Below are positions 22,146 to 27,434 of a stretch of 64,000 nt of DNA, piece by piece. The notes beneath the pieces were generated by a model that was given only the letters and a program-made list of their open reading frames with translations, searched no databases and was not told where the DNA came from. Origin of the DNA: Elizabethkingia miricola (GTDB lineage Bacteria > Bacteroidota > Bacteroidia > Flavobacteriales > Weeksellaceae); assembly GCF_001675285.1 (NCBI RefSeq), contig NZ_LSGQ01000033.1, positions 1-64,000 of the forward strand, read 5' to 3'. A program made the position numbers and the translations under genes. Positions within the stretch are counted from its first letter, which is position 1, and the number at the start of each line of letters is the position of its first letter.

Positions 22146-22724
22146 ATGAAAAAATTAAATTATCCATTGGCATTTTCTTTTGCCTTTCTAGCTTTGTCTG
22201 CCAATTTGAAAGCACAGGATACCAATACTGATAATCATACTATTGGAATTACTATCCCGGAAGTAGCATTACTGGATATAGAACCTTCCGCAAGCAAAAA
22301 TTTAACACTGGCTTTTACAGCACCTACCGAAGCCGGTCAGCCACTTGTTGCACCAAGTCCGAATACCACTTTATGGCTCAATTATTCATCAGTAAAATCC
22401 ATTGCTGATCCTACCCGAAATGTTACGGTAAAACTGACCGCAGTAGTTCCCGGGGTTGATATTAAAGTGACAGCTGCAGCTGCATCAGGTTCTGGCGGTG
22501 GTACACGTGGTACTCCTTCTGCTCAGCTTATATTAAGTGCTACAGACCAGACAATTATTTCCGGAATAGGCAGTGCCTATACAGGTGATGGGGTTAATAA
22601 CGGACACAACCTTACTTATGCTATAAACTACGGTAGTACAGCGGGATCAGTAGCATCTTATGGAGATTTGGAAGCGAAAGCATCTGTAGTAGCTACTGTA
22701 ACCTATACAATTTCCGACAACTAG
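22146..22724 (+). CDS. Secreted subunit A of fibre-like cluster
   Basis: A 192-residue secreted protein: signal peptide to about residue 23 (LKAQ), then an all-beta-type sequence rich in Thr, Ser, Ala and Gly. Residues about 37-100 (ALLDIEPSASKNLTLAF, PTEAGQP, NTTLWLNYSS) match the third-last gene of the cluster closely in order (LMDIEP, PTEAGRP, NTSKWINYTS), as does GIGSAYTGDGVNNGH near the end. It ends TYTISDN, like a donor-strand or terminal beta-strand. It is separated from the following genes by 92 bases and a hairpin, so it may be made in excess as a major subunit. I know no named family for it. Confidence 0.75.
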   Translation: MKKLNYPLAFSFAFLALSANLKAQDTNTDNHTIGITIPEVALLDIEPSASKNLTLAFTAPTEAGQPLVAPSPNTTLWLNYSSVKSIADPTRNVTVKLTAVVPGVDIKVTAAAASGSGGGTRGTPSAQLILSATDQTIISGIGSAYTGDGVNNGHNLTYAINYGSTAGSVASYGDLEAKASVVATVTYTISDN

Positions 22725-22750
22725 CAGCCAAAAACTCAGTTGCACTACTA

Positions 22751-22778
22751 AGAAGAAATAGCTCTAGCGGTTTCTTCT
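22751..22778 (+). other. Intercistronic hairpin between subunit A and the chaperone-like gene
   Basis: AGAAGAAA and TTTCTTCT pair perfectly around a 12-base loop. It lacks a following T run, so it is more likely an mRNA-processing or partial-attenuation hairpin than a full terminator. Confidence 0.5.
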
Positions 22779-22816
22779 AAAATTTTCATGTCTTTATATA
22801 CCTTAATATTCTTTTT

Positions 22817-23617
22817 ATGCAAAAGCGTATCTTATTTACTATTGCCTTTATCCTGCAGTTAGGATATATGCAGGCTGGACTTGTCATTCTCAACGGACTT
22901 AGCCATACTTATAAAGTAGAAAATGGACAAATCTACAAGGGAAAGATTGCAATAGAAAATACAGGTAATACGACTCAGAATGTAAAAATATTTCCACAGG
23001 ACTTTAGTTACAAATCCGATGGAACCATTACCTATAGTACTGTACACACCAACAGCAAGACCAATGCAGATTGGATAAAACTCAACACCAATACAGTAGC
23101 CCTAAAGGCCAAAGAAAAAACGGATGTCTATTATGAAATTCTGATCCCGAACAACATAGAACGTCCCGGCAGTTATTGGAGTGTTCTTATTGTGGAACCT
23201 ATAGACGATATAAAACCCAGTGATGCTAAAGTGGGCGTAAATATTACATCTGTTGTACGCTATGCTATTCAGATTATTACGGATTACAAAACAGAAAATA
23301 TAAAACCAGAGCTTAAATTTGAAGGTGTAAAAGTAGATAAAAAAGCAGATAAGCGTTTTTTAAATATTGCTATTGCCAACAATGGCGCTTTATACTGCAA
23401 GCTGGCAACCTCTGTTGATATATACAGTAAAAAGAGCGGACAAAAAACGGGTAATTTTTCCAGCCTTCCCATGGGATTACTACCAGATACTTCCAAAACA
23501 TTTTATATAGATATCAGTAAGCTGCCACCCGATAAATATAATGCTGCAATTATAGCAACGGATGAGGATGAAAATGCTTTCGCCCTCAATGTAGAACTAG
23601 AAATTAAGAATGATTAA
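22817..23617 (+). CDS. Periplasmic chaperone-like protein resembling WxL-interacting (DUF916/DUF3324) proteins
   Basis: A 266-residue secreted protein with signal peptide (about 1-20). Two Ig-like domains follow. The first (about 25-140) contains NGQIYKGKIAIENTGNT, SDGTITY, LKAKEKTDVYYEILIP and PGSYWSVLIVEP. These segments follow the order of DUF916 of Gram-positive WxL-interacting proteins. The second (about 155-266: KPELKFEGVKVD, LNIAIANNGALYCKL, PPDKYNAAIIATDE) is like DUF3324. There is no C-terminal membrane anchor, so it is probably free in the periplasm, where it could cap fibre subunits as pilus chaperones do. It overlaps the barrel gene by 8 bases. The homology is judged by eye. Confidence 0.65.
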   Translation: MQKRILFTIAFILQLGYMQAGLVILNGLSHTYKVENGQIYKGKIAIENTGNTTQNVKIFPQDFSYKSDGTITYSTVHTNSKTNADWIKLNTNTVALKAKEKTDVYYEILIPNNIERPGSYWSVLIVEPIDDIKPSDAKVGVNITSVVRYAIQIITDYKTENIKPELKFEGVKVDKKADKRFLNIAIANNGALYCKLATSVDIYSKKSGQKTGNFSSLPMGLLPDTSKTFYIDISKLPPDKYNAAIIATDEDENAFALNVELEIKND

Positions 23618-26360
23618 AAAAACACTGTTATATCTTCTCATTCTATTTCCGGCACTTCTATTTTCACAAAAACAAACTCAGGAATTTATTCATAAGAAAG
23701 ATAGTCTGTTGCCGGGAACGGCCACCTCTGTATCTTTTCCTATAGAAAATAATACTTCTGTACATAAGATTTATAATATTGGAATTGAATCCTCTACTCC
23801 TTATATCACCCCCATTACCACTAAGGATAATCTGAGTGTTGATGCCGGTGAAAAATCACTGTATCTGGTATCTTTGAGGATTGCTTCCGAGATACCAAAA
23901 GGAGTTTACACCCTTACGATACGTGGTACCGACAAAAACAATCCCGACAATAATGAATTCGTCAAAACTTTGGAGATTGTAATCTCTGAACAACGAAAGT
24001 TCTCTCTTACCAGCTTAAATACTCCCGAATTTATAAAAGCCGGAGAAAAGGTTACCTCTACATTTCTTTTGAAAAATAACGGAAATGTTACTGAAAATTT
24101 AACTCTCACCTGCTCACAGAATACGACAATGGACATAGATCCCAAGTTGACTTTACAACCGGGGGAAAGTAAAATTGTCTCTGTAAGTAAAACTACTGAT
24201 CCCAAACTTGGAAAAAATGAATATCTGAACCTTAACTTATCTGCACGATCAGCTAACGCACAGAACCTCACAGCCTATTCTACAACAAGGATTATATCGG
24301 TAAATCCCGTGGAAGATGACATCTATTACCGGTTTCCGGTATCTGCTTCAGTATCCTTTATCGGCATGCGCAACAGAGGAGTTTACAATAATGGATTTCA
24401 GGGAGAAATCTACGGAAAAGGCAGTCTGAGTAAAGAAAACAAAGATATACTCGAATTCCGTGCTGTAACGGCTAACCCTGTAGAGTTTAGTGCATTTACT
24501 CAGTATGAGGAATATTTTATTAATTATAAAAATGATCATCTTTTCTTTCATATCGGCGACAAAACTTACTCCTCATCTTTTCTGACGGAATTTGCACGTT
24601 ACGGCCGTGGTGCAGAGCTTCGTTATGATTTTAAAAACATTTCAATAGGTGGATTTTACAATCATCCCAGATTTTTCCGCGATATTAAAGATGAGTTTAA
24701 TATTTATACCAAATTCAGATTCAGAAAAACAGCAGAATTGACTGCCGGCTACCTTTATAAAACACCACAAAAAGACAACACGGAACCAGGTATGGGTAGT
24801 CTGGCTCTGGATTCTAACACTCACCTTCCCTATCTTACAGGAAAACTAACTGTTTTGAAAAACATCGAATTACAGGGAGAGCTCGCCTACAGTAAAAACA
24901 ATATTACCGAAGGGACAGGTTACCTGATACAGGCACAGGCTAACTATGCGAAAGTAAGCGGGAATATAATGTACATGAGAGCCAGCCCTAAATTTGCAGG
25001 ATATTTTAACAACACCAGTAACATAAATGGAAATCTGCAATACAGATTTTCGAATAAATTCAATGTATTTGCCAGCTATATACAGGATGCTAAAAACTTT
25101 CAGCGGGACACTTTATTAATGGCCGCTCCTTATCGTAAATTTTTCCAGTACGGCCTGAATTACCGATATATGAAAACCGGAAATATTATGTTTTATAATG
25201 GCTTTCAGAAATATGAAGATCGTTTGCCACAGAAGCAATTTAACTACAACGAAAGGTTCTTTAAAATCAGCATAGACCAGCAGATAGGAATCTTTCAGCT
25301 GAATCTGGAGGGACAATTCGGCAAAACCGATAATTATCTTACAGGCTTTAGCGGTAATTCCAGTTTCTATACAGCAAATGTCAGTTTTGAAAAATTCAAG
25401 ACTTCTTTTAATCTATTCGGAAGCTATGGATTAACTTCCCGTTATCTTCTAAAGAACCAGAGACAAATTTATTACGGAGCCCGAATCACCAGCAGGTTTA
25501 CAGATAATAATTATCTAAGTTTATTTTATCAGAACAATTATATCCCGGAGGAGTACTTTAAAGACCGAAATTTATTCGAAGTTCTCTTTCATCAGCGTCT
25601 TTTCCGCAACCACGATCTGGATATCTCCGGACGCTACGCCCTGCAGCGCGGAGAGCTTGGGAATAAAGATTTTATATTCTCCCTGCGCTATACACTCCGA
25701 ATGAATATTCCTATTCAGAAGATCGCTGAACATACAACGTTAACAGGACACATCAGCAACCTGGGTGTAAAAAAAACCGATGGTATACGGCTTATGCTGG
25801 GAACTCATTTATCAGTAACGGATAAAGATGGAAATTTCAGCTTTAAAAATATTGTTCCTGGAGATTATTTCCTTGAAATAGACCGCTCCACAACGGATAT
25901 GGATAATATATCCGATATTAATCTTCCGGCTGCAGTAAGTCTGACAAACAAAGAAAATATATTCAACTTTGGATTAACCGGAGCCTCAAGCATTCGAGGG
26001 CATGTACGGCTAAACGAAATCGATAAAGACAGCCAGCCTGTATCAGAATCTTCAAAACCAGAGAAAAAAGGAGAAAGTATTATTATAGAAGCATCCAGCG
26101 GAGATCTAGTTTACCGGAAAATGTTTGCTATAGGAGAAGATTTTAGCTTCACCTATCTGCGTCCCGGAGAATGGACTGTAAAACTATACAGAAACGGACT
26201 GAATAAACGCTACAAAATAGCTTCAGACAATTTCAGATTTACGCTAAAAGCTTCAGAAACTAAAGAAGTTAATATTAATATCACCAAACAGCAAACTGAG
26301 GTCAGATATCAACAGGAAGCCATAAAGGTAGAATATAACGAAACGAAAAAAACAAAATGA
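23610..26360 (+). CDS. Usher-like large outer membrane barrel protein
   Basis: A 916-residue outer-membrane protein. After the signal peptide (1-20) come two Ig-like domains (about 25-120 and 125-230; KLTLQPGESKIVSVSK is typical of NEW3/COG1470 folds). About residues 240-710 consist of alternating amphipathic strands rich in Tyr, Phe, Arg and Asn, as in a large beta-barrel. Two carboxypeptidase-regulatory-like domains close the protein (about 712-790, with VTDKDGNFSFKNIVPGDY; about 795-900). The size and order (periplasmic domain, barrel, two small beta domains) parallel FimD/PapC ushers, but the sequence is not that of the classical family. It overlaps both neighbours, so it is translationally coupled with the chaperone-like protein and subunit B. 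Confidence 0.65.
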   Translation: MIKKTLLYLLILFPALLFSQKQTQEFIHKKDSLLPGTATSVSFPIENNTSVHKIYNIGIESSTPYITPITTKDNLSVDAGEKSLYLVSLRIASEIPKGVYTLTIRGTDKNNPDNNEFVKTLEIVISEQRKFSLTSLNTPEFIKAGEKVTSTFLLKNNGNVTENLTLTCSQNTTMDIDPKLTLQPGESKIVSVSKTTDPKLGKNEYLNLNLSARSANAQNLTAYSTTRIISVNPVEDDIYYRFPVSASVSFIGMRNRGVYNNGFQGEIYGKGSLSKENKDILEFRAVTANPVEFSAFTQYEEYFINYKNDHLFFHIGDKTYSSSFLTEFARYGRGAELRYDFKNISIGGFYNHPRFFRDIKDEFNIYTKFRFRKTAELTAGYLYKTPQKDNTEPGMGSLALDSNTHLPYLTGKLTVLKNIELQGELAYSKNNITEGTGYLIQAQANYAKVSGNIMYMRASPKFAGYFNNTSNINGNLQYRFSNKFNVFASYIQDAKNFQRDTLLMAAPYRKFFQYGLNYRYMKTGNIMFYNGFQKYEDRLPQKQFNYNERFFKISIDQQIGIFQLNLEGQFGKTDNYLTGFSGNSSFYTANVSFEKFKTSFNLFGSYGLTSRYLLKNQRQIYYGARITSRFTDNNYLSLFYQNNYIPEEYFKDRNLFEVLFHQRLFRNHDLDISGRYALQRGELGNKDFIFSLRYTLRMNIPIQKIAEHTTLTGHISNLGVKKTDGIRLMLGTHLSVTDKDGNFSFKNIVPGDYFLEIDRSTTDMDNISDINLPAAVSLTNKENIFNFGLTGASSIRGHVRLNEIDKDSQPVSESSKPEKKGESIIIEASSGDLVYRKMFAIGEDFSFTYLRPGEWTVKLYRNGLNKRYKIASDNFRFTLKASETKEVNINITKQQTEVRYQQEAIKVEYNETKKTK

Positions 26361-26893
26361 AAGTCATCCGTTGCTCATTCATCATCATTGCCATAATTAT
26401 GTCTGACCATGTTTTCTCTCAAACGACAGGAAGCAAGGGAGCAATTGTTACACTTCCGGTTGTTACCTTAATGGACATAGAGCCAGCCGGCAACATTACA
26501 CTTAGTTTTGTTCCACCCACAGAGGCTGGAAGGCCTATTGTAAGTCCGGCGGCTAATACCTCTAAATGGATTAACTATACTTCTGCCATTGCAGCAGGCG
26601 GCCTCAGTAGAAGAATAACAGCTTCTGTAAACCAGACTATCGCTGGTGTCGATATAAAGCTGCAAGCCGGTGCTGCGGCTGGTGCAGGTGGAGGTACAAT
26701 GGGAACATCTTCTGGTCTGGTAACCCTTACTACTACACCTGTTACTATTATCAGTGGCATTGGTGGGGCTTATACAGGTAACGGAACCAACAACGGGCAT
26801 CAACTTACATTATCACTGGTTATTAATACTTACTCCAACCTTATAACGCAAAGCAATACACCGGTAGTTATTACTTATACCATTACTGAATAA
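26357..26893 (+). CDS. Secreted subunit B, paralogue of subunit A
   Basis: A 178-residue protein with a signal peptide (about 1-21, ending VFSQ). It repeats the subunit A blocks in the same order: LMDIEPAGNITLSF, PPTEAGRPIVSP, NTSKWINYTS, GVDIKLQAGAA, AGGGTMGT and ISGIGGAYTGNGTNNGH, ending VVITYTITE. The clear paralogy with the cluster's first gene, on the far side of the chaperone-like and barrel genes, points to a minor or tip-proximal subunit. The start overlaps the barrel stop by 4 bases (ATGA). Confidence 0.72.
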   Translation: MKVIRCSFIIIAIIMSDHVFSQTTGSKGAIVTLPVVTLMDIEPAGNITLSFVPPTEAGRPIVSPAANTSKWINYTSAIAAGGLSRRITASVNQTIAGVDIKLQAGAAAGAGGGTMGTSSGLVTLTTTPVTIISGIGGAYTGNGTNNGHQLTLSLVINTYSNLITQSNTPVVITYTITE

Positions 26894-26897
26894 AATT

Positions 26898-27434
26898 TTG
26901 AAAATGAGATTACACCCACAACCTATATTCCTCCGCACAGCTTTCTTTAGATATTTTCTGATCTTTATTTTAGTACTTGGTGCAAATAATGGAAAAGCAC
27001 AAACCATGGTCATCAGCGGCAGTGACTGGACAGTCAATATTCCGCCTATTACTGAAGCTGGAACCAATTATGCCGGAACCTACGAAAGTCAAGCCAGTCA
27101 GATTCAGCTTACTATTGGTGTTCCTTTATTACTGGGAACAGGTAAGATTTCTGTACGTTATGTCCCAAACCCTACATGGAACAATGCACTGTCTTTAGCT
27201 GCCAAACGCACAGATGACGGAACAACACTTTGCGTATTGTGCAGCATTACCGGCGGAAAGGATAACTATGTTCCCCTTACCCAAACCGATATTGAACTAT
27301 TCCGCATTACAGCTGTACTGGCGCTGGCAGCTTATAATAATATCGGAATACAACTAAGGCTAAGCGGTGTATCGGTTACTGTTCCGGCAGCAAATTATCA
27401 GGCACGGGTAATATTTACAGTAGGACCTCCTTAA
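26898..27434 (+). CDS. Secreted subunit C of fibre-like cluster
   Basis: A 178-residue protein that begins 4 bases after subunit B. An N-terminal basic stretch and hydrophobic segment end at GKAQ (about residue 35); starting at an internal Met would weaken the signal, so the 26898 start is kept. The mature protein is beta-rich and shares only general traits with A and B (DWTVNIPPITEAG, a terminal ARVIFTVGPP strand). It has a Cys pair (CVLC) absent from A and B. It could be the adhesive tip or the anchor. No known family recognised. Confidence 0.65.
   Translation: MKMRLHPQPIFLRTAFFRYFLIFILVLGANNGKAQTMVISGSDWTVNIPPITEAGTNYAGTYESQASQIQLTIGVPLLLGTGKISVRYVPNPTWNNALSLAAKRTDDGTTLCVLCSITGGKDNYVPLTQTDIELFRITAVLALAAYNNIGIQLRLSGVSVTVPAANYQARVIFTVGPP

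Follow-up and report, generated by a model that had tools for sequence, protein, structure and literature searches.

A conserved five-gene cluster of Elizabethkingia miricola as a probable divergent chaperone-usher pathway with a WxLIP-related chaperone

The 64,000-nucleotide stretch of Elizabethkingia miricola DNA analyzed here (the window) carries five genes, A to E (22146–27434), which probably encode a divergent chaperone-usher pathway. By profile comparison, the putative chaperone, B, is homologous over both of its domains to WxLIP of the Gram-positive WxL systems. This is the surprising part, since it would join two systems that have so far been held separate. An earlier sequence-only reading of the window had taken the cluster for a separate Gram-negative assembly route. 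It appears not to be unrelated to the chaperone-usher pathway: sister clusters in the same phylum link its chaperone with PapD and its large protein with ushers, and a divergent branch of that pathway is the better reading.

The ORF list confirms five packed reading frames in the host genome (4.29 Mb), as described from sequence alone, with an overlap of 8 nt joining B and C and one of 4 nt joining C and D. A hydrophobic, signal-peptide-like N-terminal stretch was read by eye in all five products. A genome scan with A and D as the query found 224 relatives, 80 of which were kept; because A and D served as the query, the kept set is biased towards this cluster type. All but one of the 80 kept loci carry each gene once, on one strand and in the order A-B-C-D-E; the hosts of these 79 belong to Chryseobacterium, Elizabethkingia, and Sphingobacterium, and 77 of the 79 complete loci have the 8-nt B/C overlap; the eightieth (L100) is a 3,352-base contig whose end is reached shortly past A. 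The operon logic of a pilus-like cluster proposed earlier thus holds, and a lack of joint conservation, which that reading had named as its refutation, was not found. The closest named matches of A among the 80 kept of 224 are from Elizabethkingia sp. YR214 (93%) and E. occulta (83%).

Independent searches, in genome samples that are subsets drawn from larger groups, matched 7 of 59 genomes with C and 7 of 296 with the Pfam family PF11797 (4 above cut-off), the own genome included in both cases. These searches led to the same cluster among other neighbour genes (L016–L018), to more distant versions of it (L019 and L020, the latter with no A seen on a contig that begins just before B), and, for two matches of the C search (L007, L008), to members of the type-2 cluster described below. 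PF11797 hits in three genomes (G129, G156, G173) were rejected as clusters, with no match in the corresponding regions (L026–L028). The five-gene cluster is also present in a genome of the same class and another family (L018 of G324; A 72%) and in two Sphingobacterium loci (L091 and L108; A 64–65%). This patchy spread, together with the unrelated neighbours in L018, suggests that the cluster moved between lineages as a unit.

Between A and B, the transcript is predicted to fold into a stem-loop (22751–22778, forward strand). Its z value is -1.34, with 20 of 200 shuffles folding equally well or better, and four of seven consensus pairs show pair-keeping changes on both sides among 39 A-B spacers. 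As a guess, such a structure would fit an excess of A. A promoter scan returned 28 sites with 24.1 expected, and a terminator scan 6 with 4.9 expected.

Gene B (22817–23617, forward strand) encodes a soluble two-domain protein of 266 residues, presumably periplasmic, which matches PF11797 above the cut-off (34.8 bits, E 1.8e-8, cut-off 28.9) and PF06030 below it (20.7 bits, E 4.4e-4, cut-off 27.3). PF06030 comes first and PF11797 second, i.e., PGBD then HBD as in WxLIP, which confirms the order of DUF916/DUF3324 motifs noticed earlier. Among aligned relatives of B, 29 of 29 match PF11797 and 28 of 29 match PF06030 at E ≤ 0.01. A profile of B finds the solved EfmWxLIP1 (9i25, 9i1y) at E 5.6e-10 over positions 45–264, covering both domains. 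For profile-profile comparison (hhalign, signal peptides cut), seven WxLIP and seven WxL proteins, one of the latter annotated as hypothetical, were taken from seven of eight fetched Gram-positive loci; the E. coli K-12 yardsticks were eight chaperones, six ushers, and 16 pilins. B matched WxLIP at 94.9% (214 columns) and the type-2 chaperones at 98.6% (218 columns), and these two matched each other at 83.3% (209 columns); the direct match of B to the eight K-12 PapD-type chaperones was 2.2%. The HMM-HMM comparison proposed from the sequence alone accordingly bears out a WxLIP-type periplasmic protein and does not directly support a PapD-type one. Consistent with the latter, B has no PapD match in Pfam at E ≤ 1 and neither Arg nor Lys where PapD has its anchor residues, Arg8 and Lys112. 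Our verdict from these comparisons is that B would be the diderm counterpart of WxLIP. An unannotated WxLIP match, 72.9% identical to EfmWxLIP1, is also listed for a Klebsiella pneumoniae plasmid (CP069367.1:101758-102429), which is surprising for a record from a Gram-negative bacterium.

PapD-type chaperones cap pilin subunits by a parallel strand that completes the subunit's sandwich. For WxLIP, Hassan et al. (PMC10599100) report an AlphaFold prediction in which a strand runs parallel in the gap of WxL and likewise completes a sandwich; their main text never names PapD, chaperone, or pilus, although it mentions that the HBD domain is homologous to pilin proteins of bacteria. The same paper describes WxLIP as staying with WxL at the surface as a long-term partner. 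A different reading of the cluster is therefore a non-polymerising surface complex, in which B stays bound to A and D as WxLIP does to WxL, and C merely exports or anchors the complex. It would fit the direct profiles, by which B is nearer to WxLIP than to PapD. However, the C-terminus of B (...ALNVELEIKND) has, by reading, no hydrophobic segment and no membrane helix such as WxLIP has (PMC10599100). Moreover, the cluster has no WxL relative, C is linked stepwise to ushers, and the sister clusters contain tandem subunits and a two-domain adhesin. Such a surface complex is hence unlikely, and the chaperone-usher reading is preferred.

One sister cluster, referred to as type-2, connects B to PapD. 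Its copy in the own genome lies outside the window (L190:4586-9822, contig 5 of G000) and comprises four genes, which encode a 182-aa subunit, a 267-aa chaperone, a 341-aa protein, and a 930-aa usher. In its C-terminal half, the 341-aa protein consists of a subunit domain (99.4%, hhalign); FimH-type adhesins are built on the same plan, their C-terminal half being a subunit domain. The type-2 plan of subunit, chaperone, two-domain adhesin-like protein, and usher resembles the fim operon. In another member (L201), five tandem subunit-like genes, four of them matched by phmmer, are followed by chaperone and usher, and after the usher comes a protein of 477 residues that also has a subunit match. 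Across the order, 26 of 296 genomes have type-2 ushers.

The type-2 chaperones match the eight K-12 PapD-type chaperones at 86.9% (E 4.2e-6, 199 columns, both domains; 95.0% untrimmed), and reversed decoys among the chaperones reach at most 0.44% (trimmed hhalign). At the PapD Arg8 column, Arg is present in 14 of 14 type-2 chaperones, and at the Lys112 column Lys in at least 90%. Weak PapD_N matches occur in 4 of the 14 (best 0.012) and WxLIP_PGBD matches in 6 (best 1.2e-7), and other Ig-like families match as many type-2 chaperones. Merged chaperone families match PapD at 4.3–29%, more weakly than type-2 alone, and among the reversed merged profiles one scored 8.2% with WxLIP. Since merging weakens the PapD link, it rests on the type-2 family, its four PapD_N matches, and one chaperone of the F37 clusters described below. 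The alternative chaperone EcpB, compared as a single sequence, matches the PapD profile at 0.20%; as the PapD profile misses EcpB, comparisons with single sequences have little power here. PDB searches with the type-2 chaperone and subunit profiles returned nothing significant, and the C-terminal part of the type-2 ushers matched NOMO2 (E 2e-4).

Gene C (23610–26360, forward strand) encodes a putative divergent usher of 916 residues, and the usher-sized protein claimed in the sequence-only reading was judged correctly. Its layout comprises a signal peptide, two Ig-like domains (about residues 22–236), a presumed barrel (about 236–706), and two C-terminal beta domains, the barrel limits being read off the analysis of composition and alternation. 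Residues 236–706 are 18.7% aromatic, compared to 4.6–9.7% in four flanking parts, and show 19–25 alternation peaks, depending on the threshold. The method is crude: FimD outside its plug gives 18 peaks at the loosest threshold, while we take its barrel to have 24 strands and presume the plug limits likewise. Composition and alternation are thus consistent with a large barrel in C; a plug-sized insertion was not recognised in it, and a PDB search with the C profile found nothing significant. It is conceivable, though very improbable, that C is a nutrient-uptake porin with accessory surface proteins instead of an assembly machine. PF00577 does not match C or anything else in the own genome, which leaves some room for a porin. 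However, C matches a six-sequence TonB-receptor profile at 0.11% (hhalign), no porin or TonB-receptor family is among its Pfam matches, so that the ordinary TonB relative named earlier as a refutation is unsupported, and C constantly has small secreted subunits and a chaperone as its neighbours.

The usher reading of C is carried by a chain of profile matches. C matches the type-2 ushers at 99.4% over 809 columns, and the six K-12 ushers directly at 0.4% (hhalign, both untrimmed). In 390 genomes of the phylum, PF00577 has no match above its cut-off and four at E ≤ 0.001 (1.9e-5 to 7.4e-4), and all four signals lie in the frame directly downstream of an independently found B-type chaperone. These four cases, eight further regions, and four earlier ones make up a set of 16 loci (F37), 14 of which come from the family f37. 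In all 16, the chaperone is followed by a frame of 996–1505 aa at a distance of -48 to +58 nt (stop-to-stop). With a profile that includes the four PF00577 cases, the match of the F37 ushers to those six from K-12 reaches 94.5% (E 7.9e-8) and spans 259 columns, which presumably take in the plug, by the plug limits we assume. The F37 ushers also match distant relatives of C (94.8%) and the type-2 ushers (96.5%), C itself weakly (about 16.3%), and EcpC, as a single sequence, at 0.8%; reversed decoys in the usher comparisons reach at most 2.7% and TonB receptors at most 0.2%. A merged usher profile matches the E. coli ushers at 55%. As the matches run from C to type-2, from type-2 to F37, and from F37 to the E. 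coli ushers, C would be related to classical ushers by steps and not directly.

Among the other F37 proteins, the chaperones match PapD at 13%, which speaks against the PapD link. One of them has both a PapD_N (9.4e-4) and a WxLIP_PGBD match (0.0033) on the same residues, both below cut-off, but its best Pfam match is fn3_5. Of seven F37 subunits tested, five belong to DUF4402 (PF14352) above the cut-off. Taken together, the profile comparisons put B and C into one superfamily with PapD-like chaperones and with ushers that can be recognised as such.

The putative subunits are encoded by A (22146–22724; 192 aa), D (26357–26893; 178 aa), and E (26904–27434; about 176 aa), all on the forward strand, and D and E are present in all 79 complete loci. 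A and D are 42% identical in alignment, which bears out the claim of two paralogous secreted subunits. W-x-N-Y-x-S is invariant in 51 of 51 aligned A and D sequences and absent from E. The listed ORF of E (26898-27434) has a TTG start, and the ATG at 26904 agrees better with relatives and is probably the start. All 29 E proteins in the alignment share two Cys residues in a C-x-x-C pattern. A has no Pfam family at E ≤ 1, A, D, and E have no WxL family match in Pfam, and PDB searches with the A/D and E profiles gave nothing significant.

In hhalign comparisons with signal peptides cut, A/D match the subunits of distant clusters at 98.7% and the type-2 subunits at 75.7%, with reversed decoys at 2.04% or below. 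An untrimmed match of A/D to the 16 K-12 pilins (86%) spanned residues 1–26 only and fell to 0.29% after trimming, and A/D as classical pilins were thus rejected, as were A/D as WxL domains (0.33%); E matched WxL at 0.22%. A kinship between A/D and E (83% untrimmed, residues 13–108) likewise dropped to 0.65%, leaving E as an orphan, and a 'TEAG' shared by A, D, and E was set aside as evidence of kinship. The type-2 subunits match pilins at 47% over 127 columns untrimmed and at 1.8% trimmed, a match that is not due to the signal peptide alone and is therefore termed unstable. A is probably the major subunit, D would be a minor one, and E could be guessed to be a tip or cap.

The superfamily reaches widely across Bacteroidota. 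A broad profile of B-type chaperones, built partly from some of the 395 Bacteroidota genomes searched, has matches in 80 of them (38 of 171 genera), 33 of which match at E of about 1e-34 or better. The C profile matches 60 of the 395, many in the C-terminal domains only, which were not counted as clusters. Of 17 distant regions fetched at stronger C-profile matches, 13 have the start of this C type on the contig, in each case with B directly upstream and at least one subunit match adjoining B and C; of the remaining regions, L153, L161, and L163 are truncated contigs or contain just a fragment of C, and L162 is a type-2 locus. Among 15 further regions with chaperone matches, seven have an usher-model match (one weak), four a large unassigned frame directly downstream of the chaperone, and four neither (in one case close to where the contig begins). 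Strong chaperone matches with no recognised usher adjoining were seen in L212, L213, and L214, from a family labelled f31.

A similar arrangement is found in another diderm phylum: the sole plasmid match of B lies on plasmid 2 of Deinococcus deserti (L139:9447-13834), where B (109 bits) is preceded by a secreted ORF of 164 aa and followed by a relative of C (123.5 bits, distant C profile) and then by an ORF of 118 aa. The two small ORFs fit by position and size, with no profile support. The annotation there calls C carboxypeptidase regulatory-like and B a fimbrial subunit of the 'FimB/Mfa2 family', and B is marginally above the cut-off of PF08842 (21.7 bits, cut-off 21.2). These features of the Deinococcus B, and the occurrence of such pili in Bacteroidota, the phylum of the window, are what speaks for Type V (Mfa/Fim) pili, in which A, D, and E would be fimbrillins and B an Mfa2-type anchor. 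However, the proteins of the window match no fimbrillin or Mfa family in Pfam at E ≤ 1, and no lipobox Cys was seen, by reading, at the ends of their signal peptides. Type V pili have lipoprotein subunits and are not known to use an usher. An assignment to Type V pili is thus highly doubtful.

In the chaperone-usher pathway that we favor, A, D, and E would be secreted to the periplasm, where B would cap them by completing their beta-sandwich folds with a donor strand, and C would secrete and assemble them into a surface fibre; we infer the barrel, the strand complementation, the assembly order, and the fibre itself. Several results speak against this reading: the negative direct comparisons of B with PapD and of C with the E. 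coli ushers, the weak direct match of C to the F37 ushers, the loss of PapD signal when chaperone families are merged, the failure of A/D to match pilins, WxL, or the DUF4402 subunits, the orphan status of E, and the four regions that have a chaperone match but neither an usher-model match nor a large frame next to it. A wider hypothesis, to which we give an even chance, is that the WxL and chaperone-usher systems share one ancestral donor-strand chaperone, with the Bacteroidota and Deinococcota clusters as missing intermediates: diderms would have coupled this chaperone to an usher, and monoderms would have tethered it to the membrane as WxLIP. If so, the WxL-WxLIP pairing would be an arrested chaperone-subunit complex. 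Testable ideas follow for both sides, namely that WxLIP is a donor-strand chaperone and that B works as predicted for WxLIP, and the solved WxLIP chains allow immediate comparison. The spread of the chaperone family through Bacteroidota would add a route of surface assembly, although a recognised usher does not stand beside all of its members. In the open-licence PMC literature, no paper was found that joins Bacteroidota, chaperone-usher, usher, and donor strand, and no mention of DUF4402 or PF14352; a secretion-system survey (PMC4793230) omits the chaperone-usher pathway in its available part.

Among named systems, Type V pili share with the cluster the phylum and, probably, a surface fibre. 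The Gram-positive WxL cluster (WxLIP, i.e., DUF916 plus DUF3324) shares the homology of B over both domains, and in three of eight fetched plasmid WxL loci a small WxL gene is followed by WxLIP and then a large surface gene; unlike these, the cluster has a B without membrane helix or the WxLIP motif NQIDKxxxYFDLK (PMC10599100), no WxL domain, and an usher-like protein instead. The f37 DUF4402 clusters have the same succession of subunits, a B-type chaperone, and a large protein directly downstream that itself matches E. coli ushers, whereas their subunits are unrelated to A/D by profile (2.9%). From the chaperone-usher systems of the E. coli K-12 fim type (PF00345, PF00577), the cluster differs in that neither B with PapD nor C with the E. 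coli ushers gives a direct profile match, B falls outside PF00345 and C outside PF00577, C has no recognised plug-sized insertion, and A/D are unrelated to pilins by profile. Yet it resembles them in its small secreted subunits and two-domain chaperone, in an outer-membrane-sized protein ending in beta domains, in the adjacency of subunit, chaperone, and usher genes (79/80 kept loci; 13/13 distant regions), and in a homology that would run through the type-2 chaperones and the F37 ushers.
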